Source: Candidatus Sulfobium mesophilum (lineage in GTDB: Bacteria; Nitrospirota; Thermodesulfovibrionia; Thermodesulfovibrionales; UBA6898). From it: a stretch of 48,094 bases of DNA. The position numbers and the translations under genes were made by a program. Under the pieces are notes generated by a model. It had not been told where the DNA came from. It ran no database searches and worked only from the letters and a program-made list of their open reading frames with translations. Below, in pieces: positions 20,601 to 34,084 of the stretch; position 1 is the first letter of the stretch, and each line of letters starts with the position of its first letter. The stretch is from contig OUUY01000013.1 in NCBI GenBank assembly GCA_900302705.1, positions 1-48,094 on the forward strand, written 5' to 3'.

Positions 20601-20753
20601 ATGATTAGGAAGTTTGAAGAGATTGTTGCCTGGCGGAAGGCTAGAGAGCTTTGCAAGTGTGTTTATACGATGCCTAAAAATAATATCTCCCCTTTCGTAA
20701 AGGGTACTCCGCTGTCTCCCCCTTTGGCAAAGTGGGATGAATGGGGATTTTAA
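20601..20753 (+). pseudogene. truncated four-helix-bundle (S23-like) protein remnant
   Basis: The frame starts with a good ribosome site (GAGG) and MIRKFEEIVAWRKARELCK, the typical opening of four-helix-bundle proteins of the 23S-intervening-sequence type (usual length ~120 aa). After 24 codons it runs into a CCCC/AAAGGG intergenic repeat and stops at 50 codons. It is probably a dead fragment cut by repeat insertion. Confidence 0.6.
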
Positions 20754-20806
20754 AGATGAATGGATTGACAAAATCTCCCCTAACCCCTCTTTACCAGAGA
20801 GGGAAA
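20682..20806. repeat. composite TCTCCCCTTT / AAAGGGG palindromic repeat
   Basis: Three related units (AATATCTCCCCTTTCGTAAA, CCCCCTTTGGCAAAGTGGG, AAAATCTCCCCTAACCCCTC) form small inverted repeats. Similar CTCC...AAAGGGG sequence occurs at about 26593-26640. They resemble dispersed intergenic repeats and interrupt the four-helix-bundle fragment. Confidence 0.55.
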
Positions 20807-20845
20807 AGAAGAAAAGAACTCAAAAATCAAGGGCGCGAAATTCAA

Positions 20846-21919
20846 ATGAAATCGCTTAACCTGGTTAAACTGTTTAAACAATTGAACGTGTTGAAACTAT
20901 CGAACCTTCTTAAACTTCTTACCCTTGTTGCATTTATAAGCGGTTGCGCGTCGGCAGGGCATGTTATAATCGACAAAGAGGCAATGGACAGGATTCTTTG
21001 GCCTGGGCCTCCGGAGACACCGAGGATCAAGTATCAGTGGAGTCTCTCTGTTGTTTCGGGGAAACAGAACGGCGGCCTTTACGAATTGATAATGGGCAAT
21101 GAAGGAGACTTTGCCGACCCGCGCTCATCGCCGAAGCTCTTGAGACCTTACAGCCTGCATGTTGACGGAGACAACCTTTATATAGCCGACACGGGCGCTT
21201 GCAGAGTGACGGTAATAGATATGAAGGAACTGAAGGCGCGAAATATTACCAGTGCGGGCGATAAGGAATTTCTCGCCCCCGTCGCGGTGGTAGCATTCGA
21301 AGGCATGACCTACGTGAGCGATTCCCTGCTCAAGAAGGTTTTCATATTCGACAAGGATGGCCGGCTTTCGGGCGAGCTCAAGGGCACTTTTCAGAGGCCT
21401 ACGGCTCTGGCCATAGATAAGAAAAGAAGGATCCTTTATGTTTCCGACACACCTGCCCACGTAGTGGGCAGATTCGGCCTCACGGGCGCCAGCCTCGGCA
21501 ACCTGGGCAGGAACGGCTCGGACGAGGGGGAGTTTAACTTCCCGACTCATCTCTGGGTCGATGACCAGGGAAGACTCTACGTTACGGACGAGTTGAACTT
21601 CAGGATACAGATGTTCTCTTCCGAAGGAAAATTCATAGGCATGTTCGGGGCCCCTGGTGACGCCCCGCAGAACTTTCAGAGGCCGAAGGGCATCGCCACG
21701 GACAGCGACGGCGACGTCTACGTCGTGGATTCCGTGAAAGACACAATAAAGATTTTCAGCAGGCAGGGGGAATTGCTGCTGTTTTTCGGACAGGAGGGAA
21801 GGGGCTACGGCGATTTCTATCTGCCCTCAGGCATATTTATAGGCGCTGATGATATTATCTATATTGCCGATACATATAATGGAAGGGTGCAGGTTTTTCA
21901 ATATATGAAGAAAAAATAG
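20846..21919 (+). CDS. NHL-repeat six-bladed propeller lipoprotein 1
   Basis: About 357 aa from ATG 20846. The lipobox is LVAFISGC, so it is membrane-anchored. An open frame upstream (from 20741) only translates the intergenic repeat and is discarded. After a short WPGPPETPRIKYQWSLS segment shared with the 25.3 kb protein come six NHL-type blades (LYIADTGACRVTVID, TYVSDSLLKKVFIFD, LYVSDTPAHVVGRFG, LYVTDELNFRIQMFS, VYVVDSVKDTIKIFS, IYIADTYNGRVQVFQ). Such propellers commonly accompany surface cytochromes; a scaffolding role is inference. It sits between the barrel and the third tetraheme gene, all on the + strand with short gaps. Confidence 0.87.
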   Translation: MKSLNLVKLFKQLNVLKLSNLLKLLTLVAFISGCASAGHVIIDKEAMDRILWPGPPETPRIKYQWSLSVVSGKQNGGLYELIMGNEGDFADPRSSPKLLRPYSLHVDGDNLYIADTGACRVTVIDMKELKARNITSAGDKEFLAPVAVVAFEGMTYVSDSLLKKVFIFDKDGRLSGELKGTFQRPTALAIDKKRRILYVSDTPAHVVGRFGLTGASLGNLGRNGSDEGEFNFPTHLWVDDQGRLYVTDELNFRIQMFSSEGKFIGMFGAPGDAPQNFQRPKGIATDSDGDVYVVDSVKDTIKIFSRQGELLLFFGQEGRGYGDFYLPSGIFIGADDIIYIADTYNGRVQVFQYMKKK

Positions 21920-22010
21920 GCTAAGGGTGAGAAAAAAATACAGGTTAAGGAAAAGATAGGTTAAGGTTGAGATGAAAAAATATAGGTTAAGAATAAGACA
22001 GGTTAAGGTC
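21917..22010. repeat. GGTTAAGG low-complexity tract entering the next gene
   Basis: Repeated AGGTTAAGG / TAGGTTAAG words run from the NHL stop through the start of the tetraheme gene, so residues 1-12 of that protein (KKYRLRIRQVKV) are encoded by the tract. Confidence 0.6.
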
Positions 22011-22775
22011 TGGAAAGAACCGTTCACCTTTACCTTCACTTTTGTCTTAATCTTGACCGTATACGTGTTCTTTTCTTCTTCCGTCTTTGCTCATAGTATT
22101 GTCAACACGAGGCATAATCTCTCTGCGACCGGGACGGGGCCGATAAGGGCCGTTGCGGAACAGGAGGTCTGTGTCTTCTGTCATACCCCGCATTCCACCC
22201 AGTTGGTCACTCCTCTTTGGAACCACACGATGAGCGCGGCAGTATATAAGCTGTATTCAAGCGTTACTCTCCTAAGCCCGACGAGCCCTGCCATTCAGCC
22301 CGACAGGAGTTCGAAGTTATGCCTCTCCTGCCACGATGGTACGGTTGCGCTGGGCTCTGTTGTGAACCTGGGTGGGTCGGCGACCACCATATCGATGCAG
22401 CAGGCAGGCACTACGATTGCTACCCTTCCGCCGACTTCACCAGCCTATTTAGGCACCGATTTAAGCGGGCATCATCCAGTGTCCATAGAGGTGAACGCCA
22501 ACTTGGTAACTGACAAACAGACCCAGTGCAATGCAGGCACAGTTACGTATAAGGTATGCCCGCCTTTGCCCGGCCAGCCGGTAAGGCTTAGGCCGACCGA
22601 CAATGCTTATGGCGCGAGTGTCTCTCCCCGAATGGGGGTCCAGTGCACTTCTTGTCATGACCCTCACAGCGACCCGAACCCTCCGAGGTCGGTATTTCTA
22701 AGGGTGGGGGATGCCAACAATACAGATCAATTATGCACGACATGCCATGTGGATTGTTACGCAGCCTGCCCGTGA
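21972..22775 (+). CDS. secreted tetraheme c-type cytochrome 3
   Basis: The protein has 267 aa. The basic N terminus and hydrophobic core (FVLILTVYVFFSSSVFA) give a signal peptide. Heme sites are CVFCH, CLSCH, CTSCH and CTTCH. The order NTRHNLS...CHTPHS...PLWNH...SCHDG...GTDLSGHHPV...TSCHDPHS matches tetrahemes 1 and 2, so this is a third, more divergent member. It ends unusually in CHVDCYAACP, two extra cysteines after the last heme. The RBS is weak because the GGTTAAGG tract occupies the leader. Confidence 0.85.
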   Translation: MKKYRLRIRQVKVWKEPFTFTFTFVLILTVYVFFSSSVFAHSIVNTRHNLSATGTGPIRAVAEQEVCVFCHTPHSTQLVTPLWNHTMSAAVYKLYSSVTLLSPTSPAIQPDRSSKLCLSCHDGTVALGSVVNLGGSATTISMQQAGTTIATLPPTSPAYLGTDLSGHHPVSIEVNANLVTDKQTQCNAGTVTYKVCPPLPGQPVRLRPTDNAYGASVSPRMGVQCTSCHDPHSDPNPPRSVFLRVGDANNTDQLCTTCHVDCYAACP

Positions 22776-22873
22776 AGAAAGGGTGTAAGGAATAAGAGGA
22801 CAGGGTGTTGGGAATATGGCGTCAGATGAAAAAGATAAAGAATTGAATACAAGATTGGAAACGGAGGCTCAAG

Positions 22874-24019
22874 ATGAATAGGGAATGTCTCCATTCTTTG
22901 TTCCCTGCCCCCTACACCCTTATACACTGCACCCTGCTTATGGTGTTCTTCTTTTCACTTAGTTTGAGTTATGCCGTTGGTCCGAGCCATCTTGACAAGA
23001 ACAAGGTGTCTACGGGATGTGCGACCTGCCATAAAGGACACGGCACGCGCGGAACGACCCTGCTCGAAAGCCCGAAGGACAACCTGTGCTTTAAGTGCCA
23101 CGGAGGCGCAGGGAAGGCAAAAGACGTATACTCGGTTATTGTGAAGCCGTCGAACCATCCCATTATACAGACCTCTCGTTACCATGTGACGGGTGAGACG
23201 CTCCCGGAAAGGGAAGGCTCCGTCCCGAGGCATGCCTCCTGTTACGACTGCCACACCACTCACAGGTCTGAAAAGGGAAACGCAGTCAAAGGGATGAAGG
23301 GATATACCGGCAGGGGCGCAGGGATAAAGCAGATAAGCGGTGAGTATCAGGTATGCTATAATTGTCATTCCGACAGCGCCAACCTCCCGCCGGAAAAAAA
23401 CATAGCCACCGCTTTTTCTCCCTCCAACGCATCATATCATCCGATAGAGACCTACGGGAAGAATTCATTTGTGCCGAGTCTTAAGAGAGAATACACTGCC
23501 TCGAGTATCATAAAATGTTCGGACTGCCACGGCAATGATGACCCCTCAGGCGCTCAGGGCCCCCACGGGTCTATCTATGTGCCGATATTGAGGGATAGAT
23601 ATGAAAGGGAAGCCGGGCTTGAGAGCCCTTCGACATACGCCTTATGCTACCGGTGCCATAACAGGACGAGTATACTCAACAACGAAAGTTTCAAGACACA
23701 CAAGGAGCACATTGTCTTTAATCAGACGTCGTGCGCCTTTTGTCATAATGCGCACGGGAGCGCGACACACCGGAATTTGCTCAATTTCGACATGAGCCTT
23801 GTCTTTCCCAACAACAAAGGGGAATTGAGTGTCATGGCGTCTGTTCCTGGAAAGCCCCGGTGCTTTCTTTCCTGTCATGTCAAGGGAAAGACGTTCGATC
23901 ACATGCTCAGTGGGCCTAACATGTCAAAAATGTCGAGCAGTCAGTCTCTGCAATCAAGAGCAACCGGCAGCCGGCCCCTGCAATATTGTGTCAACAACAG
24001 ATGCGTACCGAATTGGTAA
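22874..24019 (+). CDS. multiheme c-type cytochrome with seven CXXCH and one CX3CH
   Basis: The protein has 381 aa; ATG 22874 is preceded by GGAGG. Signal peptide core is TLLMVFFFSLSLSYA. Canonical heme sites are CATCH, CFKCH, CYDCH, CYNCH, CSDCH, CYRCH and CAFCH. An eighth site reads CFLSCH, a CX3CH spacing. Many free His can act as distal ligands (HKGHG, TTHRS, NAHGS). The C-terminal ~45 residues are Ser/Arg-rich with two cysteines. It probably sits in the periplasm or on the outer surface and passes electrons within the cluster. The start of the signal sequence is encoded by a CCCTACACCC-type low-complexity stretch, complementary to intergenic GGGTGTAG repeats. Confidence 0.86.
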   Translation: MNRECLHSLFPAPYTLIHCTLLMVFFFSLSLSYAVGPSHLDKNKVSTGCATCHKGHGTRGTTLLESPKDNLCFKCHGGAGKAKDVYSVIVKPSNHPIIQTSRYHVTGETLPEREGSVPRHASCYDCHTTHRSEKGNAVKGMKGYTGRGAGIKQISGEYQVCYNCHSDSANLPPEKNIATAFSPSNASYHPIETYGKNSFVPSLKREYTASSIIKCSDCHGNDDPSGAQGPHGSIYVPILRDRYEREAGLESPSTYALCYRCHNRTSILNNESFKTHKEHIVFNQTSCAFCHNAHGSATHRNLLNFDMSLVFPNNKGELSVMASVPGKPRCFLSCHVKGKTFDHMLSGPNMSKMSSSQSLQSRATGSRPLQYCVNNRCVPNW

Positions 24020-24441
24020 AAATGTTATGGGGATTAGAGCGCCGGGGCGCTACTTGCCGCGTCTTTCGATGGCGTCAAGCCGTTTTGTGGTAGCTCTTGA
24101 TCCTAACCCTTCCTCTACAGCGGTCCGTACCGTAATTAAGTTACTGATCCGCTTATTTCCTTGGATCGAAAGAATTTAAGACTAATCTCTTGTCTGTCTT
24201 GCATAATTTCATGACCTTTTGCTGAGTATCTCGATGAGAAATGAAGAAAGACAGAAGGCGACAGCAGATACTGACGAAAGAAAACAATTGTTCTCAATAA
24301 AAAGAGCTAATCCTTCTCCCCTATTTATCGCTATTTTGAGCTACTTCAACTCCCCTGTCACAAATGCTATATTCATTCTTAGAGATGAATTCTGGAGAGG
24401 ACTACAGTTAATTAAGCAAGCCCGTACGAACTGGAGGGTCT
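24020..24441. other. intergenic region before the nonaheme cytochrome
   Basis: 422 bp with no supported gene. Its right half contains copy D of the recurrent element and a leader resembling those after copies C and E (AAGCAAGCCCGTACG). The left half shows nothing recognisable. Confidence 0.6.
24303..24374 (+). promoter_or_regulatory. recurrent upstream element, copy D
   Basis: AGAGCTAATCCTTCTCCCCT, then ATCGCTATTTTGAGCTACTT, then 20 bp to TGCTATATTC (24365-24374). The second half is nearly identical to copies C and E. It lies 68 bp upstream of the nonaheme cytochrome start. Confidence 0.68.
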
Positions 24442-25230
24442 ATGAATGGCAGAGTTGTTGAAAATAATCCCGGAATCGGCACAATCACTTCGAGATGTGT
24501 CGTCTTGCTCATATCTTCAATAGTTGCCTCGCTGCTAGGCATTACGTGCAGGTCTGCTTACGGGGAAGCCGAGTGCCAGCAGTGCCACAAGGAGCTAACG
24601 AGAAAGAAGATCGTCCACGCGGCGGTAAAGAAGGGATGTTCCGTCTGTCATTCGGCAATAGATGCGGCAGATATTCCCCACAAAAAAAAGAATACGATAA
24701 CAAAGGGTCTAGCCGCCGAAGTCCCGGCCCTCTGTTTCCAATGCCATGATAAGAAAAAATTCGAGAACACAACAATTCATCCCCCTGTCAAGGACGGCAT
24801 GTGTCTGGCGTGTCATTCACCTCATAATTCGGACAATGGAAAACTCCTCCAGTCTGCTGTCCCCGACCTTTGTTTCAACTGCCACGACAAAACCGAATTC
24901 ACGAAAAAAAACGTCCATCCGCCTGTTATGGCGGGATGCTTCGATTGTCATGCTGCCCATGCATCCAAGTACACTTCCCTGACAGTGAAGGCACAGACTG
25001 CCCTCTGTACGGCCTGCCATACAGCGCCGGAGATTAAGAACGGGATTCATATCATGAGAGGCTTTGCAGCACCCGGACATCCTGTGAGCGGCAAGACGGA
25101 CCCCAAGAGGCAGGGAAAGAGGTTTTCTTGCGCCAGTTGTCACCAGCCTCATAGCTCGGATTTTAGAAAACTCGTGAGGTATAAGAACGATACGCCCTTT
25201 GAGATCTGCATAAGTTGTCATCCGAAATAA
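24442..25230 (+). CDS. nonaheme c-type cytochrome (doubled-CXXCH type)
   Basis: The protein has 262 aa from ATG 24442 with GGAGGG seven nt upstream. Signal sequence core is VVLLISSIVASLLGI. Nine CXXCH motifs: CQQCH, CSVCH, CFQCH, CLACH, CFNCH, CFDCH, CTACH, CASCH, CISCH. There is about one heme per 25 residues, with repeating units of the type IHPPVKDGMCLACHSPH and VHPPVMAGCFDCHAAH, the hallmark of doubled-CXXCH proteins. Such dense hemes imply a wire-like periplasmic carrier. It has its own copy of the shared control element and is probably co-transcribed with the NHL lipoprotein that follows. Confidence 0.88.
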   Translation: MNGRVVENNPGIGTITSRCVVLLISSIVASLLGITCRSAYGEAECQQCHKELTRKKIVHAAVKKGCSVCHSAIDAADIPHKKKNTITKGLAAEVPALCFQCHDKKKFENTTIHPPVKDGMCLACHSPHNSDNGKLLQSAVPDLCFNCHDKTEFTKKNVHPPVMAGCFDCHAAHASKYTSLTVKAQTALCTACHTAPEIKNGIHIMRGFAAPGHPVSGKTDPKRQGKRFSCASCHQPHSSDFRKLVRYKNDTPFEICISCHPK

Positions 25231-25310
25231 GGAACAGGGTGTAGCGTATATCGTGTGGGAACAAAAGATGCGTTTTACAATTTTGGTTTTTCATGGAGGA
25301 TAAGAAACGT

Positions 25311-26480
25311 ATGAGAAGGGTCAGTCGGTTAATTTTGAAGATATTTAGTAACAGGCGTTGGTTTTCCGCGGCTCTGCTGGCAGCTATGCTCGCATCCTGT
25401 GCACCCACTGTGGAAAAGAAGGTTTGGGATCTTACCTGGCCTCTTCCGCCTGACGAGCCGAGGATAAAATATGTCGAAATCCTGCAGTCCAGCGCCGATG
25501 TCGGGGAACAGGGAGGAGTAGCGGAAGCCCTGTTCGGCAGCGATGTCATGGTCCTTTCGAAGCCCTACGGGGTTGCAGTTGACAAAGAGGGAAGGGTCTT
25601 TGTCACGGACGCGGGAGCGGTTTTTGTTTTTGACAAGAAGAATAGAAAATTCAGCATGATAGGAGTCGAACCGGGAGTGGGAAAGCTTAATACTCCGGCA
25701 GGGGTTGCAGTTTCAAAAGTCGACGGGAGGGTCTACGTCACTGATATAGGGTTGAAGCGACTATACATTTACGACAGGGAAGGCAAGTATCTAAATGCTA
25801 TCGGGAAGGAAAACGAATTTACAAACCCGATTGGTGTTGTGGTCGATGATAAGAGAGGGAGAGTGTATGTTGTTGATTCAAAGAAACGCAATGTCAGGGC
25901 CTATTCAACTGATGGGCGTTTCATCATGGACATAGATCTGGCGAAAGACGGTCTGAAGTATTTCCATACCCCGACAGAGCTCGCCCTTGACAGCGTGGGG
26001 AACATTTATGTGAGCGACACACAGGCCTTTTCGATTAAGATTTTTGATCCCGACGGAAATTTTCAGAAAATCATCGGTAAATTAGGCGATGTCCCCGGGA
26101 ACTTTGCCAGGCCAAAAGGGGTCGCGTTAGATTCGGAGGATCATATGTACGTTGTTGATGCCGCTTTTAACAACTTCCAGATATTCAATAAGGAGGGTCA
26201 GGTACTTCTTTTTGTCGGCGCGGGAGGCAGTAATCCGGGGGAGTTCAACTTGCCCGCAGGTATCGCGATCGACGATGAGGACAGGATTTACGTTACCGAG
26301 CAGTACAACGCAAGGGTCCAGGTCTTTCAGTATATGAGCGAGAAGTGGAAGCGGGCGCATCCGGACCTGTGGGAAAAGGCGCAGCAGGTCAGCAGGGAGG
26401 CGCCTGTCAAAAAAGAGGACCCGCCGGAAAAGAAGGCGCCGGTCAATAAAGAGGATAAGGCCGAAGAAAAAGCGGAGTAG
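25311..26480 (+). CDS. NHL-repeat six-bladed propeller lipoprotein 2
   Basis: About 389 aa from ATG 25311 (GGAGGA at 25295-25300); ATG 25293 is the alternative. Lipobox LLAAMLASC. The segment WPLPPDEPRIKYVEILQ and six blades (VFVTDAGAVFVFD, VYVTDIGLKRLYIYD, VYVVDSKKRNVRAYS, IYVSDTQAFSIKIFD, MYVVDAAFNNFQIFN, IYVTEQYNARVQVFQ) make it a clear paralogue of the 20.8 kb protein. It differs by a charged Lys/Glu/Pro tail of ~35 residues (EKKAPVNKEDKAEEKAE). Probably periplasm-facing or surface-exposed and associated with the cytochromes. An intergenic GGGTGTAGCG stretch precedes it. Confidence 0.87.
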   Translation: MRRVSRLILKIFSNRRWFSAALLAAMLASCAPTVEKKVWDLTWPLPPDEPRIKYVEILQSSADVGEQGGVAEALFGSDVMVLSKPYGVAVDKEGRVFVTDAGAVFVFDKKNRKFSMIGVEPGVGKLNTPAGVAVSKVDGRVYVTDIGLKRLYIYDREGKYLNAIGKENEFTNPIGVVVDDKRGRVYVVDSKKRNVRAYSTDGRFIMDIDLAKDGLKYFHTPTELALDSVGNIYVSDTQAFSIKIFDPDGNFQKIIGKLGDVPGNFARPKGVALDSEDHMYVVDAAFNNFQIFNKEGQVLLFVGAGGSNPGEFNLPAGIAIDDEDRIYVTEQYNARVQVFQYMSEKWKRAHPDLWEKAQQVSREAPVKKEDPPEKKAPVNKEDKAEEKAE

Positions 26481-26881
26481 GAAAAAACGGGGTGTGAAAA
26501 ATTTATACTGTAGGAAGTAGCGGGTGGGGAAAGACAAAAACAGCGGCGTGCATACTTAACGGTCTCATAATAGTGAAGACAGTGAATTATAAAATCCCTC
26601 CTATCCTCCGTTTTACCAAAGGGGAAATTTTCCCCAAAAGGCGTTGAACCGCCCCTTTTTTGGCTGTGTTATACTTGAGCAATTTTCGATCAGATGATCT
26701 GGTCGAAGCATGTGAACAAAACCGCTTAAGAAGAGGATTGCTTCGGGATATGAAGAGGAGCAGACGACAACAGTGACGCGATTTCTATTTCTTTTCTCTT
26801 GCTTGTCCTTAATCGTTTGCAGCTCTGCTAAGGAAGCATATATGATTTTTCGACAGATATCATAACAAGTGGAATTTATCC
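26481..26881. other. intergenic region with repeats and weak terminator
   Basis: 401 bp, no gene supported. The near-palindrome GGGGAAATTTTCCCC lies within a CTCC...AAAGGGG repeat (~26593-26640). GGCG/CGCC hairpin followed by CCCCTTTTTT (~26640-26660) could end the NHL transcript. Around 26784-26845 CTATTT...CTCTTG...GCAGCTCTGCT...CATATATG is a very degenerate possible match to the recurrent element. Confidence 0.5.
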
Positions 26882-27925
26882 TTGAGCATACTATTAATTT
26901 TTAGGGTAGTGAGATATATATCGGCGCTGATGGCGACGGCGTTAGTTTGGCTCCTGCTCGGCATGGCTTACCTCGATCACTTCGTTAAACCCTTTGACAA
27001 ACTTATACCCTGGATGATGCCGTGGAAAAGGACGTACGATTCCGCTGCCGGGCCGGCAACTCTGGAGAAACGTATTTTGATGATGCAGGACTACCTCGAT
27101 GCGTCCAATAAGGCGGCAAATTATGCGTTCTTGATTATCCTTTTTTCCTTTGCCGCAATATGCGTGTATCTTACCCTTGTGTATCAGCAGAAACAAAGAA
27201 GATCAAAAGAAAACGCATTGCTTTCACTGAAGAATCAGGAGATCGCGCGGCGCAATGAATTTATTCGCTACATCTCGGCCACCATAGGTCATGAATTTAA
27301 AAATAACGTCGGGAGGATAAAGCGTCGGCTTGATCTGCTCCCCGAACTTCCTCTTGATGCCAGGAGGCGTATTGAAGACAACCTTGACAAACTCTTTGCC
27401 GATATCGACATTTTTAAAAAAATCTCGGATGAACGGGAAGCCGGACTGATAGATTTTGCGAAGGTCGATCTGGGAGAAATGCTTGCCGACCTGGTCAGCC
27501 AATACAGTGATTTCGCTCATTTCAATTATGAGGGATGGGTGTCCCCTCCCTCGATCTTTGCATCACGCACCCTGTTAAGGACGGTTTTCGAAAACCTGAT
27601 AGACAATTCCATAAATTATAAAAAACCCGGGCAGACCCGTGCTAATATCAATCTGTCATGCTCCCTGGATATTGATGCGAAGCGGCGTTATGTTTCCCTG
27701 TCATTCCGGGACGAGGGAATCGGAATGGATGAAAAAGGGGCGGACCAGTGTTTTTATAAAGGTAAGGGCAGTCAGTCGGGTTGGGGTCAAGGCCTCTATT
27801 TTGCCAAATATGTGATCGGACTCCATGCCGGGAAAATCAGGACCGGCAAAGAATATACGGCCTTAGGGGTAGGCACCGAGATGATCATTCATCTGCCATT
27901 TGTTGAGGAGGCCTTGAATGTTTAG
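26882..27925 (+). CDS. two-span membrane histidine kinase of the HEPN-receiver operon
   Basis: 347 aa from TTG 26882 (GTG 26909 is the alternative; neither RBS is strong). TM1 (~12-32) and TM2 (~80-100) flank a ~45-residue periplasmic loop too short for a usual sensor fold. After a coiled coil comes an unusual H-box, SATIGHEFKNNVGRIKRRL, keeping the acceptor His. The ATPase has N-box FENLIDNSINY, G1 FRDEGIGMDEKG and G2 GWGQGLYFAKYVI. It is expected to phosphorylate the receiver protein encoded next, with which it overlaps by 8 bp. What it senses is unclear; the small third gene may supply the periplasmic input. Confidence 0.85.
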   Translation: MSILLIFRVVRYISALMATALVWLLLGMAYLDHFVKPFDKLIPWMMPWKRTYDSAAGPATLEKRILMMQDYLDASNKAANYAFLIILFSFAAICVYLTLVYQQKQRRSKENALLSLKNQEIARRNEFIRYISATIGHEFKNNVGRIKRRLDLLPELPLDARRRIEDNLDKLFADIDIFKKISDEREAGLIDFAKVDLGEMLADLVSQYSDFAHFNYEGWVSPPSIFASRTLLRTVFENLIDNSINYKKPGQTRANINLSCSLDIDAKRRYVSLSFRDEGIGMDEKGADQCFYKGKGSQSGWGQGLYFAKYVIGLHAGKIRTGKEYTALGVGTEMIIHLPFVEEALNV

Positions 27926-28808
27926 TGTGCTTATCGCTGATGATGACTACGAGGACAGGGAACTCCTAAAACTCGAAATTAAACGGGCTCTTGGGAGCCA
28001 GGAGCCTGAGCTCAGGTTTTATGAAGCTGTGAGCGTAAGAAAAGCCTTGCAACTCCTCACCACAAGGATGTTTGATCTCATGACATTAGATATAGAGTTT
28101 GATCGTATGAATGAGGGGATCGATGTCTTGCCTGAGATATGCGAAAATTGCCCTACGCTCAACATTATCATCATAAGCGGCAAGCTCAATAAAAGCGAGG
28201 TTTCCGAACAATTGTTCCGCTTTACAAAGGACAATGTTTTAAAGGGAAAACGATGGGCCAGACATTTCGATGTGCTGGACAAAAAGGACGAGAAGACCGA
28301 GGCGCTGCGGCGAGCGTATTCCTTTTCTTTTAAACAGCGGGAGGGTTCCGACAAGGTAAAAGAACTCTTTCTCCTTGCTGAAGCTTACCTTGAGCAAAAT
28401 ATGATAGACAGGTGTATGGAAATATATCAAAGGATACAAAATATAGTCCCCGGAGAATTAGAATCTCATGAAAATATCAATATAATTAAGGGTGACATAT
28501 CTGCCGAGCATGCAAGGGAGTATTACAGGAAGGGAGAAAAGGTCGTGGCCTCCCTTATTTTGGGCCATTATATTGAAAGCCGTCTTAAGGCGTTCACCAG
28601 CAAAATACTTGGGTCCTCATTTCCTGTATTGTCTGATTGCCTTAAGACGCTCGAACAGACCGACAAGATCAGCAAATACCGGAAAGGACTATTCCTGCTG
28701 CTGTTACGGTTAAGGAACAAGACTGTTCATCAGCCGTCAACTATACAAGAACAAGACCTTGATATGGCAATAAAGAACCTGGAATTACTGGAGGATACCT
28801 TGCAATAA
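27918..28808 (+). CDS. response regulator with TPR-like middle and HEPN-like C-terminal domain
   Basis: 296 aa, ATG 27918 with GAGGAGG upstream inside the kinase gene. The receiver (1-~125) has LIADDDYED, phospho-acceptor Asp in LMTLDIEFD, Ser in IIIISGK and Lys in VLKGK. Residues ~145-195 look like a TPR-type helical pair (FLLAEAYLEQNMIDRCMEIY). The C-terminal ~100 residues are all-helical and contain RLRNKTVHQPS; RNKTVH fits the R-N-x3-H (Rx4-6H) signature of HEPN domains, some of which are RNases and some only binding modules. No DNA-binding motif is visible. A receiver with this output is unusual. Receiver call certain; HEPN call from motif and context. Confidence 0.8.
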   Translation: MFSVLIADDDYEDRELLKLEIKRALGSQEPELRFYEAVSVRKALQLLTTRMFDLMTLDIEFDRMNEGIDVLPEICENCPTLNIIIISGKLNKSEVSEQLFRFTKDNVLKGKRWARHFDVLDKKDEKTEALRRAYSFSFKQREGSDKVKELFLLAEAYLEQNMIDRCMEIYQRIQNIVPGELESHENINIIKGDISAEHAREYYRKGEKVVASLILGHYIESRLKAFTSKILGSSFPVLSDCLKTLEQTDKISKYRKGLFLLLLRLRNKTVHQPSTIQEQDLDMAIKNLELLEDTLQ

Positions 28809-29455
28809 TGAAAGAAGAGAGTATCAGGAAATTTATCCTGCCTCCGGGGCCGATACTGAGCATCCTGCTCATAGGCCTGCTGCTTCTGAGTGTGCTTCTG
28901 TATTATCGGGCCATAACAATACAGAGGTTTTTCGAGCCTGCGCTCGCCATGACTCAGCCGAGAATAAAATTTTCTAATAACATCAACAACCTGCTCTTAA
29001 AAGAATTCGGTAAAGAGGAAATCAAAGGTATAAAGTTCAAGACCGGCTCAATTCTTATTGAACAATCCATGTTATTTCCTGATACACAAAACATAGACGT
29101 GGCAGAACCGGTAATCCTGGAGAAGTTAGGCCATGTTATTCTGTCTGCCCTAAGTGACCCTGATATCAGGGACAATATCAGCCTTATCATAGTCATTACA
29201 AGGTTCCCGCTCAATTCCGGCATAACGTCCAATAAGGAGCTCAGATATCAGCTGCAGAGGCGGGCCGAATTGATACGGGAATCCCTCTTTTCGATAGAGC
29301 CGCAGCTCGAAGAGAAATACGGGACATACTTTGCAGCCACTGCAATGGCGGTGGATCCCACGGTGAAAGAGACCAACTGGATAGAATTCCGGATAATATC
29401 CACCGAGATGCTGCATATAGAGGTACTCAAGAGGTTAGAAAAATATGCGCATTAA
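28808..29455 (+). CDS. single-span periplasmic OmpA/MotB-like protein
   Basis: 215 aa. The ATG overlaps the receiver gene's stop (TAATG), so it is translationally coupled. One N-terminal membrane segment (~15-35, ILSILLIGLLLLSVLLYY) leaves about 175 residues in the periplasm. The region IIVITRFPLNSG...SNKELRYQLQRRAELIRE resembles the OmpA/MotB segment in which GHTD is followed by SN-x-LS-xx-RA, but the GHTD-like signature is degenerate, so peptidoglycan binding is uncertain. No MotA-like partner is nearby. It may present periplasmic or cell-wall status to the kinase two genes upstream. Fold assignment is tentative. Confidence 0.65.
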   Translation: MKEESIRKFILPPGPILSILLIGLLLLSVLLYYRAITIQRFFEPALAMTQPRIKFSNNINNLLLKEFGKEEIKGIKFKTGSILIEQSMLFPDTQNIDVAEPVILEKLGHVILSALSDPDIRDNISLIIVITRFPLNSGITSNKELRYQLQRRAELIRESLFSIEPQLEEKYGTYFAATAMAVDPTVKETNWIEFRIISTEMLHIEVLKRLEKYAH

Positions 29456-29848
29456 GCACATCAGCTTAAGCCATTGAGGATATTGAGTTTACCTCTCTGA
29501 TTTATTCCCGGCAGAAACCCCAGTAGTAACTAATAGCGCTATCATTAAGGCCCCCCATTTCTTGTCATTTCTGCTCGTCGGTAATCTTTCTGCAGAAGAG
29601 GGATTGAGGACTAGCCGTAGTGACGATAATAGACGTAACTATCTGGTTTTGCTAATGAAATCCTCTGTGAGATTCATTCTAAGAAGAAAGAGTGATTTTT
29701 GTAGTGGAAATAGCTATACAAGCTCCCTGTTTTTTGGCTATTTTGAGCTACTGTAATTCTCTCGCCCCAAATGCTATATTCCAAAATAGAGATAGGAGCA
29801 TGAAGAGGCCGAAAGTAATTTTAGTAAGCCCATACGGAGGTCCAGCAT
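29456..29848. other. intergenic region before the GGEEF gene
   Basis: 393 bp. The right half (29644-29834) is a diverged duplicate of 17182-17376 and contains copy E. A 21-codon frame from 29800 overlaps the GGEEF start but its AGGAG is only one base away, so I do not call it a gene. The left part shows nothing clear. Confidence 0.6.
29709..29781 (+). promoter_or_regulatory. recurrent upstream element, copy E
   Basis: AATAGCTATACAAGCTCCCT, TTGGCTATTTTGAGCTACTG, then TGCTATATTCC 20 bp on. It is nearly identical to copy C. It lies 68 bp before the GGEEF gene. Confidence 0.7.
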
Positions 29849-31986: not shown

Positions 31987-34084
31987 TCAGATTCTTCCCT
32001 TGTACTTCAGTTCTTTCAGCCGTATGAAAAATTTTGTCCCGCCTTCTCTTTTCAGATCAATGTAGCCCCTGAGCTGATGCTCGACCAATGTGCTTACAAG
32101 ATAAAGCCCAAGGGTGTTTGCTCCTCCCATGTCAACTTCCCGTGGAATGCCGACGCCGTTGTCTTCGACTGTCAGTTCGTACAGTCGCTCTCTCTTTTCA
32201 TCTTCGCCGGCTTTCCGGAGCATTACATGCGCTTCTCCCTTTCTTTCTCCAGGGAAAGCATACTTAAGGGAGTTTGTGATCAACTCGTCTACAACAAGTC
32301 CACATGGGATCGCCGTATCGATCCCGAGGAAGACATCTTCAACATCGAGCCTCAACACAACCCTCGCCGGACTTACGCTGTATGATCTATATAAATTGCT
32401 GATCAGAGTCGTGAGATAATCATTAAAATCGATCTTTGAGAGGTTCTTGGAAAGGTACAACTTTTCATGCACGAAGGCCATCGACTTGACCCGGTTTTTG
32501 ATCTCACTGAAAACCTCATCGGGCTTTCTGCCCGCGACATATTCCAGTTGCAGGTCCAGGAGGCTCGAAATAATCTGCAGGTTATTCTTTACCCTGTGGT
32601 GGATTTCCTGAAGCAGGAGCTCTTTTTCTTCGAATGAGGCCAGAACGCATTTTTTCGGCGAGCTTTTGTTGGGTAATGTCCCTCACAATGCCCACCGCAT
32701 GCCATCTGTTATTCATCTGGAAAGTTGACAGGGACAACGCGATGGGGAATTCGGTGCCGTCTTTATTTTTTGCGACAACTTCAATAGTGTGACCGATTGC
32801 GTTGCCCTTGCCAGAATTCCGAAATGTCTCCATCCCCTTCGTGTATTTTTCACGGAACCCCTCGGACGCCAGGGTTTCATGCATTGACCTGCCCAACATT
32901 TCGTCTTCCGTATATCCCAAAATATTTTCGGCCGCAGGATTCCAAAATAAGACGCAGTCCCTGTCATCTACCATAATGATCGCGTCTTTTGCCGTGGAAG
33001 TAATGATCTTGTTCGTCTGCTCGCTGAGAATAAGTTTATTTTCTATCTTTTTGCGGTCCGTGACGTCCTCTATAACGGTGAAGCAGCGGACAATGTTGCC
33101 CTTTTCATCTCTTTCGGCAGTTGCCGACAACAGGACATCCTCCAACTCGCCATTCTTCTTCACAAACTGATATGATATGTCCTTGCAGAACCCACAGTGC
33201 AGAAAGACCGGCAGGACAACCTCCGCGGCATATTTCCGCGATTCCTCCGTCAGAAAATCCGTCGCTTTCCTGCCGAGCACCTCATCTCTCTCATAGCCAA
33301 GCTTTTTAAGCCAGAAATCATTTACCTCTATAATAGTGCCCGCTTCATCCACAGTATGAAGAAGAACAGGTGTTTCATTGTACAGGGTACTGTATTTGTC
33401 CCTGCTCTGTCTTAGCAAATCGTATGACAACGAGAGGTTAGCCCTCATGGTAGAGAATGAATCGACCAGGTGTCCCACTTCGTCGTCATCCGCCTTCAGA
33501 CTGGGAACATTAAACTTGCCGTCTGCCAGCTTCTGTGTTGCCAGCTCCAGCGCCTTGACAGGTTGCACCACCTTCCGCTCAAGCACGATCCCGACACTCA
33601 GGATAGTTGCGGCGATTATAGCAACCATGATCGAAACTGCATTATAGAACTCCTTCTTCCATTCCTTCAGATGAGGCGACAGGTCGACTGTCATCGTAAG
33701 CGTGCCTAGATTCATGTCCAGATATGAGATTCGCTTTGTCAGCGTGCGCAGGTCTTGCCCATGTGTTGCGGCGTCAGGCATCGGCCTATTCCGGATGGGA
33801 TAAAGCAGCCTGCCGGTTGCATCAGTCAGTTGGATGCTGGTCCAGTCGCGGTTTTTTTTCAACAGTTCGTTGAAGTTTTCATGAATAGTATCCAGCTCGC
33901 GCCCCAAAAGAAGAGGAATCATACCTTCCGCTACGCTGTCCAGATGCCTTTTTGCTGCCTCTTCCCACTGGCGCTCTATATTAGAAACGGATCGCGGCAT
34001 CCAGCTCAGGTAGAGATAGCCGATAAGCAGGGCCATCAGGATGAGAAGAGGCAGAAAGACTTTGACCCTGAGGCTGATCCGCAA
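31987..34084 (-). pseudogene. HAMP-PAS-PAS HisKA_2 histidine kinase, one frameshift
   Basis: TTG 34084 directly follows the stop of the PhnD-like gene with GGGGGA upstream. TM1 and TM2 flank a ~140-residue periplasmic region; HAMP (ALELATQKLADGKFNV), two PAS domains and the segment [10 protein letters not shown] follow. Frame is then lost at a run of six A (six T at 32650-32655 on the + strand). Removing one A restores [19 protein letters not shown], continuing to a complete HisKA_2/HATPase end ([23 protein letters not shown]). The intact paralogue at 35 kb confirms the expected reading. It may be a real lesion, a slippage-prone switch or an assembly error; the original protein would be about 698 aa. 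Confidence 0.8.

Follow-up and report, generated by a model that had tools for sequence, protein, structure and literature searches.

Three overlapping genes at 26882–29455 of the window (the 48,094-nt stretch of DNA analysed here, which forms contig C90 in a draft genome totalling 2.77 Mb) encode a membrane histidine kinase, a response regulator and a single-span periplasmic protein. We put the chances at about even that the three form a signalling module in which the state of the envelope would be relayed by the kinase to the regulator, and the phosphorylated regulator would cleave RNA through a C-terminal HEPN domain. What the sequences suggest, in other words, is an envelope signal that controls RNA cleavage instead of transcription. 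Transcription is what most response regulators control, and a smaller number work via second messengers, via proteins or via outputs that bind RNA (ANTAR); the HEPN nuclease fold, for its part, has been described chiefly in toxins, in CRISPR effectors and in abortive infection. If our reading is true, histidine-kinase signalling acts here directly via RNA cleavage, and the trio adds a non-defence setting for the HEPN fold. A two-component system with a HEPN output is probably new. Searches of open-access papers turned up no regulator of the REC-HEPN kind that is paired with its own kinase, and in the DefensePredictor paper REC and HATPase are named in a figure legend only. In Anantharaman et al. 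2013 (PMC3710099), DUF4145-type HEPN domains are fused to many other domains, and the receiver occurs just on a transmembrane segment without HEPN.

All three genes lie on the forward strand. The kinase gene (26882–27925, 347 aa) begins with TTG and overlaps the regulator gene (27918–28808, 296 aa) by 8 bp (27918–27925); the regulator gene in turn meets the gene for the periplasmic protein (28808–29455, 215 aa) at a TAATG junction. This is the arrangement that a first, sequence-only reading had described, and the open reading frames bear it out. The 8-bp overlap is conserved in all complete trios listed. Because about 400 bp of non-coding DNA flanks the trio on either side (26481–26881 and 29456–29848), the trio is its own unit; a scan for promoters and terminators at the trio found promoters not above expectation. 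Upstream lies an NHL/multihaem cytochrome cluster, and downstream a gene for a GGDEF protein.

A transmembrane scan of the kinase gives segments at residues ~12–31 and ~77–103, and the loop between them is only ~45–50 residues long, so the earlier description of a kinase almost devoid of a periplasmic sensor stands. In the loop, PW at 47–48 is invariant, within a near-invariant LMPW. The catalytic part is complete. A HATPase_c domain (residues 230–340) scores E 1.1e-12, above the Pfam cut-off, and a 30-row alignment shows invariant residues in the H-box GHEFKNN (H137, E138 and N141 of H137-E-F-K-N141), in the N box (N238, D241, N242), in G1 (D277, G279, G281) and in G2 (G302, G304). By analogy with HisKA kinases, H137 (codon 27290–27292, forward strand) is the putative phospho-acceptor. 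Its setting, H-E-F-K-N, is of the HExxN type, the form of the motif typical of HisKA kinases that also dephosphorylate their partners.

The regulator opens with a receiver domain (residues 1–122; 27918–28283, forward strand) that is recognizable by fold, by its invariant residues and by a Response_reg match (2e-9) above the Pfam cut-off; the same family is matched in all 31 of the regulators compared. Since the acid pair D8 and D9, the phospho-Asp D58, S87 and K122/K123 are invariant in these 31, the receiver should be phosphorylatable, and since the phosphotransfer and ATP-binding residues are invariant throughout, the relay should be live. Phosphate would pass from the kinase to the regulator. 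In its full set of phosphotransfer and ATP-binding residues, and in the overlap of kinase and regulator genes, the trio resembles classical two-component systems; it differs in that its output is HEPN, rather than a DNA-binding, cyclase or methylesterase domain, and in that kinase and regulator have a periplasmic protein coupled to them as a third member. Domain searches of the regulator for a DNA-binding domain found none. Between receiver and HEPN lies a TPR-like helical segment (residues ~127–190; 28296–28487, forward strand), which adds to what the first reading had described. Its TPR matches are weak, occurring in 29 of the 31 regulators; a PDB profile search matched consensus TPR at residues 151–206, and the predicted model has helices at 127–190.

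The output domain occupies residues 193–296 (28494–28805, forward strand), and the family-level evidence that it is HEPN is strong: Pfam, fold, motif and hhalign agree. The motif previously noticed, R266-N-K-T-V-H271, is present at bases 28713–28730 of the forward strand and is followed by P273; the family consensus is RNKAIH. When the 31 regulators are compared, R266 and H271 prove invariant, as does P273, and N267 is kept in at least 90%. In the HEPN bundle, the third long helix ends with the R-N-x3-H stretch. Invariant R and H with a near-invariant N is the pattern of nucleolytic HEPN families (PMC3710099).

DUF4145 (PF13643) is matched by 20 of the 31 regulators (E ≤ 1; best 6.2e-5) and the HepT-like family (PF01934) by 12. 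The window's regulator itself passes no HEPN Pfam cut-off; an orthologue in genome G082, in an independent genome search, passes that of DUF4145 (25.3 vs 23.1 bits). The helical domain had been called HEPN-like from its letters, and its predicted fold agrees. The AF2 model of the regulator has a mean pLDDT of 81, mostly 83–93 over residues 193–290, and VIA matches its HEPN region to 2hsb with Z 9.4 (rmsd 2.5, 99 residues) and, over 193/194–296, to 1wwp (8.6), HepT 7bxo (8.1), Csm6' 8pe3 (8.1) and 1o3u (7.7). For a helical bundle these are middling scores, but among the matches listed there HEPN entries alone appear. Foldseek finds no match below 1e-3 for the whole regulator model, its top non-significant matches being mostly Csm6. 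With hhalign, the HEPN profile aligns with HepT proteins of the same order in register, the R and the H of the two motifs falling in the same columns, at E 0.0024 and a probability of 12%, a weak absolute score, compared with E 0.1–0.8 for eight column-shuffled controls; with one DUF4145 protein, the motif region alone aligned. When only the HEPN part was run as a profile against PDB, the best match was HepT, not significant (E 0.49). The domain shares with DUF4145 and HepT-like proteins the helical bundle, the R-N-x3-H motif and the fold matches to 2hsb, 1wwp, 1o3u, 7bxo and Csm6'. It differs from them in being fused to a phospho-receiver and a TPR-like segment, and in lacking an MNT antitoxin and the HXY tyrosine.

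HEPN domains that carry both R and H can also act as dimerisation or regulatory domains, and the MtlR proteins, which have the HEPN fold, regulate without, to our knowledge, an RNase role. It is possible, if on the unlikely side, that the trio is a two-component system of this other sort, in which HEPN is not a nuclease and serves for dimerisation or protein binding while the TPR-like segment docks a partner, such as another regulator or the transcription machinery. The position of that segment before HEPN would suit such a role, as would the sigma-54 two-component pair found near the trio in five related loci (L010, L025, L056, L057 and L060), and catalysis has been lost in many HEPN families (PMC3710099). 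A pure scaffold, however, has no need of R266 and H271, and both are strictly invariant across ~40% sequence divergence. Among the readings we considered, an envelope-linked RNA-cleavage switch seems the best inference.

The third protein has a single transmembrane helix at about residues 8–39 (28844–28906, forward strand, for residues ~13–33) and, at residues ~75–198 (29030–29401, forward strand), a domain whose VIA fold matches are of the beta-alpha-beta-alpha-beta-beta, OmpA/MotB type. A one-span protein with a degenerate region of this kind is what had been read from the sequence, and the transmembrane scan and predicted fold concur. Searches of its sequence against Pfam and PDB returned nothing significant, so the OmpA/MotB assignment derives from the predicted fold. 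The best match, over the whole protein and including the transmembrane helix, is ZorB of the Zorya system (8vvi_A: Foldseek 4.2e-8; VIA Z 13.8 over 201 residues, rmsd 6.0), followed by MotS (Z 12.5), PA0833 (12.3), MotB (10.8) and OmpA (8.3). With MotB, MotS, PA0833, YfiB and OmpA-type proteins it shares one transmembrane helix followed by this domain, at Z ~8–12.5; unlike them it has no conserved peptidoglycan Asp/Arg, no ion-channel aspartate in the membrane and no Pfam match. The transmembrane aspartate of ZorB is D24/D21 (PMC11890865), and no acidic residue occurs at positions 16–35 in any of 31 members of our family, which also differs from ZorB in having a kinase and a regulator, not ZorA, for partners. 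Positions 132–134 are mostly R/K-F/Y-P in place of the GHTD-type Asp, and R152 is kept in just 16 of the 31, while N142 is conserved. Since the membrane aspartate is absent and the peptidoglycan Asp/Arg are not conserved, the protein is not a subunit of a stator, nor is it an anchor of the canonical peptidoglycan-binding kind. We considered it as a MotB/ZorB stator or member of a Zorya system and rejected this, the transmembrane helix being without Asp. The earlier idea of a cell-wall-contacting partner is thus weakened: the OmpA/MotB fold survives, and the canonical peptidoglycan-binding residues do not. Conservation is strongest instead in the transmembrane helix and a juxtamembrane helix, YYRAxxxQRFLEPALA.

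How might these parts work together? Our proposal, to which we give about even odds, is a dedicated system of three components: once phosphorylated, the regulator would turn its HEPN endoribonuclease on or off, under the guidance of a partner that senses the envelope, and signalling would act directly by cutting RNA. The OmpA/MotB-like protein, held beside the kinase in the inner membrane, would read the state of the envelope and set the kinase/phosphatase balance of the sensorless kinase. The kinase would phosphorylate D58 of the soluble regulator, whose receiver and TPR-like segment would then join or release two HEPN domains, giving a composite R-x4-H site that would cut RNA; the output would be RNA decay or translational control in place of transcription. 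The periplasmic protein is the putative co-sensor because the kinase has no sensor domain and this protein supplies a periplasmic one, and the conservation of the LMPW loop in the one and of the juxtamembrane helix in the other is as expected if both touch. HEPN nucleases are typically dimeric (PMC13092281), and since the receiver is intact and HEPN is the sole recognizable output, phosphorylation-controlled dimerisation would be the simplest switch. The anatomy of the module, its conserved catalytic residues, its co-occurrence and its operon are observed; phosphotransfer, the sensor role of the periplasmic protein, RNase activity, an RNA target and a direction of control are what we infer from them.

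A general case for control of HEPN-mediated RNA degradation by cell-surface signals was made by Anantharaman et al. (PMC3710099). The membrane-associated HEPN proteins predicted there share with the trio the idea of a surface stimulus leading to RNA degradation; they differ in that HEPN is fused directly to the transmembrane segment, whereas the trio has a soluble regulator under the control of a kinase. Through a regulator that has a kinase to itself and keeps the RNase motif of HEPN intact, envelope sensing would be tied straight to RNA degradation, and the trio would offer a genetically simple test case for activation of HEPN through phosphorylation.

Outside the window, the three genes behave as the unit they were taken to be. 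The relatives of the window's genome are Nitrospirota/Thermodesulfovibrionales metagenome assemblies; strong matches to the regulator, and matches to the periplasmic protein, each occur in 24 of 101 that were sampled, and these are the same 24. The trio is linked at every complete locus except in G094, where the gene for the periplasmic protein stands alone on another contig (L143:7291-7929, G094:C57), with a GTG start and unrelated genes around it; this genome is a natural case in which the operon is broken and the periplasmic partner nevertheless retained. In a sample of the Nitrospirota phylum the regulator occurs in 29 of 396 genomes, and the copies read out from other classes are also trios. 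Two genomes, the window's own included, carry two trios each; the second trio of the window's genome (L056:9567-12116, G000:C106) lies near its sigma-54 two-component pair, and the two regulators are 67% identical. Because trio identity is ~60–73% throughout the phylum and the catalytic residues are invariant, the trio, judged by its sequences, is more than a chance association. A scan beyond these relatives, of a kind that detects close relatives only, returned Nitrospirota-like records and one receiver-only match, in Idiomarina.

The tree of the trio splits into two main clades, inside which families largely hold together, and distances for rpoB and the trio are moderately correlated (r 0.33–0.47). 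That correlation suggested recent horizontal spread, which we rejected: the supported tree has coherent families in two clades. Old paralogy or duplication, followed by loss, accounts for most of the distribution, and fits it better than rampant transfer. Some transfer may have occurred, since a single clade for one family (f15) is weakly rejected (p 0.024, with a long-branch warning).

The first reading had offered a defence module as an alternative. On such a view a ZorB-like protein and the kinase would sense infection damage to the envelope, and the HEPN RNase would bring about abortive shutdown. ZorB is indeed the best structural match of the periplasmic protein, the distribution is patchy at 29 of 396 genomes, and HEPN RNases are common in defence, the CBS-HEPN system validated in PMC13092281 among them. 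We nevertheless consider it improbable. No gene of the ZorA or ZorC/D/E type is present in the operon or recurs among its neighbours, and the periplasmic protein lacks the transmembrane Asp; the well-conserved trio sequences, with families largely coherent in the tree, speak against it too. The neighbours are mostly housekeeping genes, recurrent ones being MEMO1/AMMECR1-like, radical SAM, ribonucleotide reductase, DnaX-like and similar (names from sequences and Pfam). Among 119 neighbour proteins searched with PADLOC and Pfam there was no recurrent defence partner, only isolated type I restriction-modification and GajB-like matches; the trio itself gave weak receiver matches to PADLOC families and nothing else, and no copy was found in viral contigs (IMG/VR) or plasmids (PLSDB). 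With housekeeping neighbours and no plasmid or viral copy, a defence role is without positive support, and we rejected a defence island as its setting.

Least probable of all, and by our estimate very improbable, is a toxin-antitoxin-like unit in which the phosphatase activity of the kinase silences a HEPN toxin: HepT-family toxins are close in fold, and the kinase has the HExxN motif of phosphatase-competent kinases, but no antitoxin-like gene is linked to the trio, HepT of HepT-MntA carries RX4HXY with an AMPylated Tyr and an adjacent MNT gene where the trio has H-x-P, with P273 invariant, and no MNT nucleotidyltransferase in its operon, and the whole trio is stably inherited on the chromosome.

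A few other features deserve mention. The relatives are very rich in HEPN proteins of the HepT-like kind, with up to 13 matches per genome (G007 and G033). Directly upstream of the trio, 20741–26480 of the forward strand encodes beta-propeller proteins of the NHL type, along with cytochromes that carry multiple CXXCH haem sites; MtrC/MtrF-like matches occur here. Further downstream, at 31987–34084 of the reverse strand, a HAMP-PAS-PAS reading frame (32582–34084) is followed in another frame by a HisKA_2/HATPase half (31987–32481); apparently these are one sensor kinase that a frameshift at about 32.5 kb has divided, either real or an assembly error.
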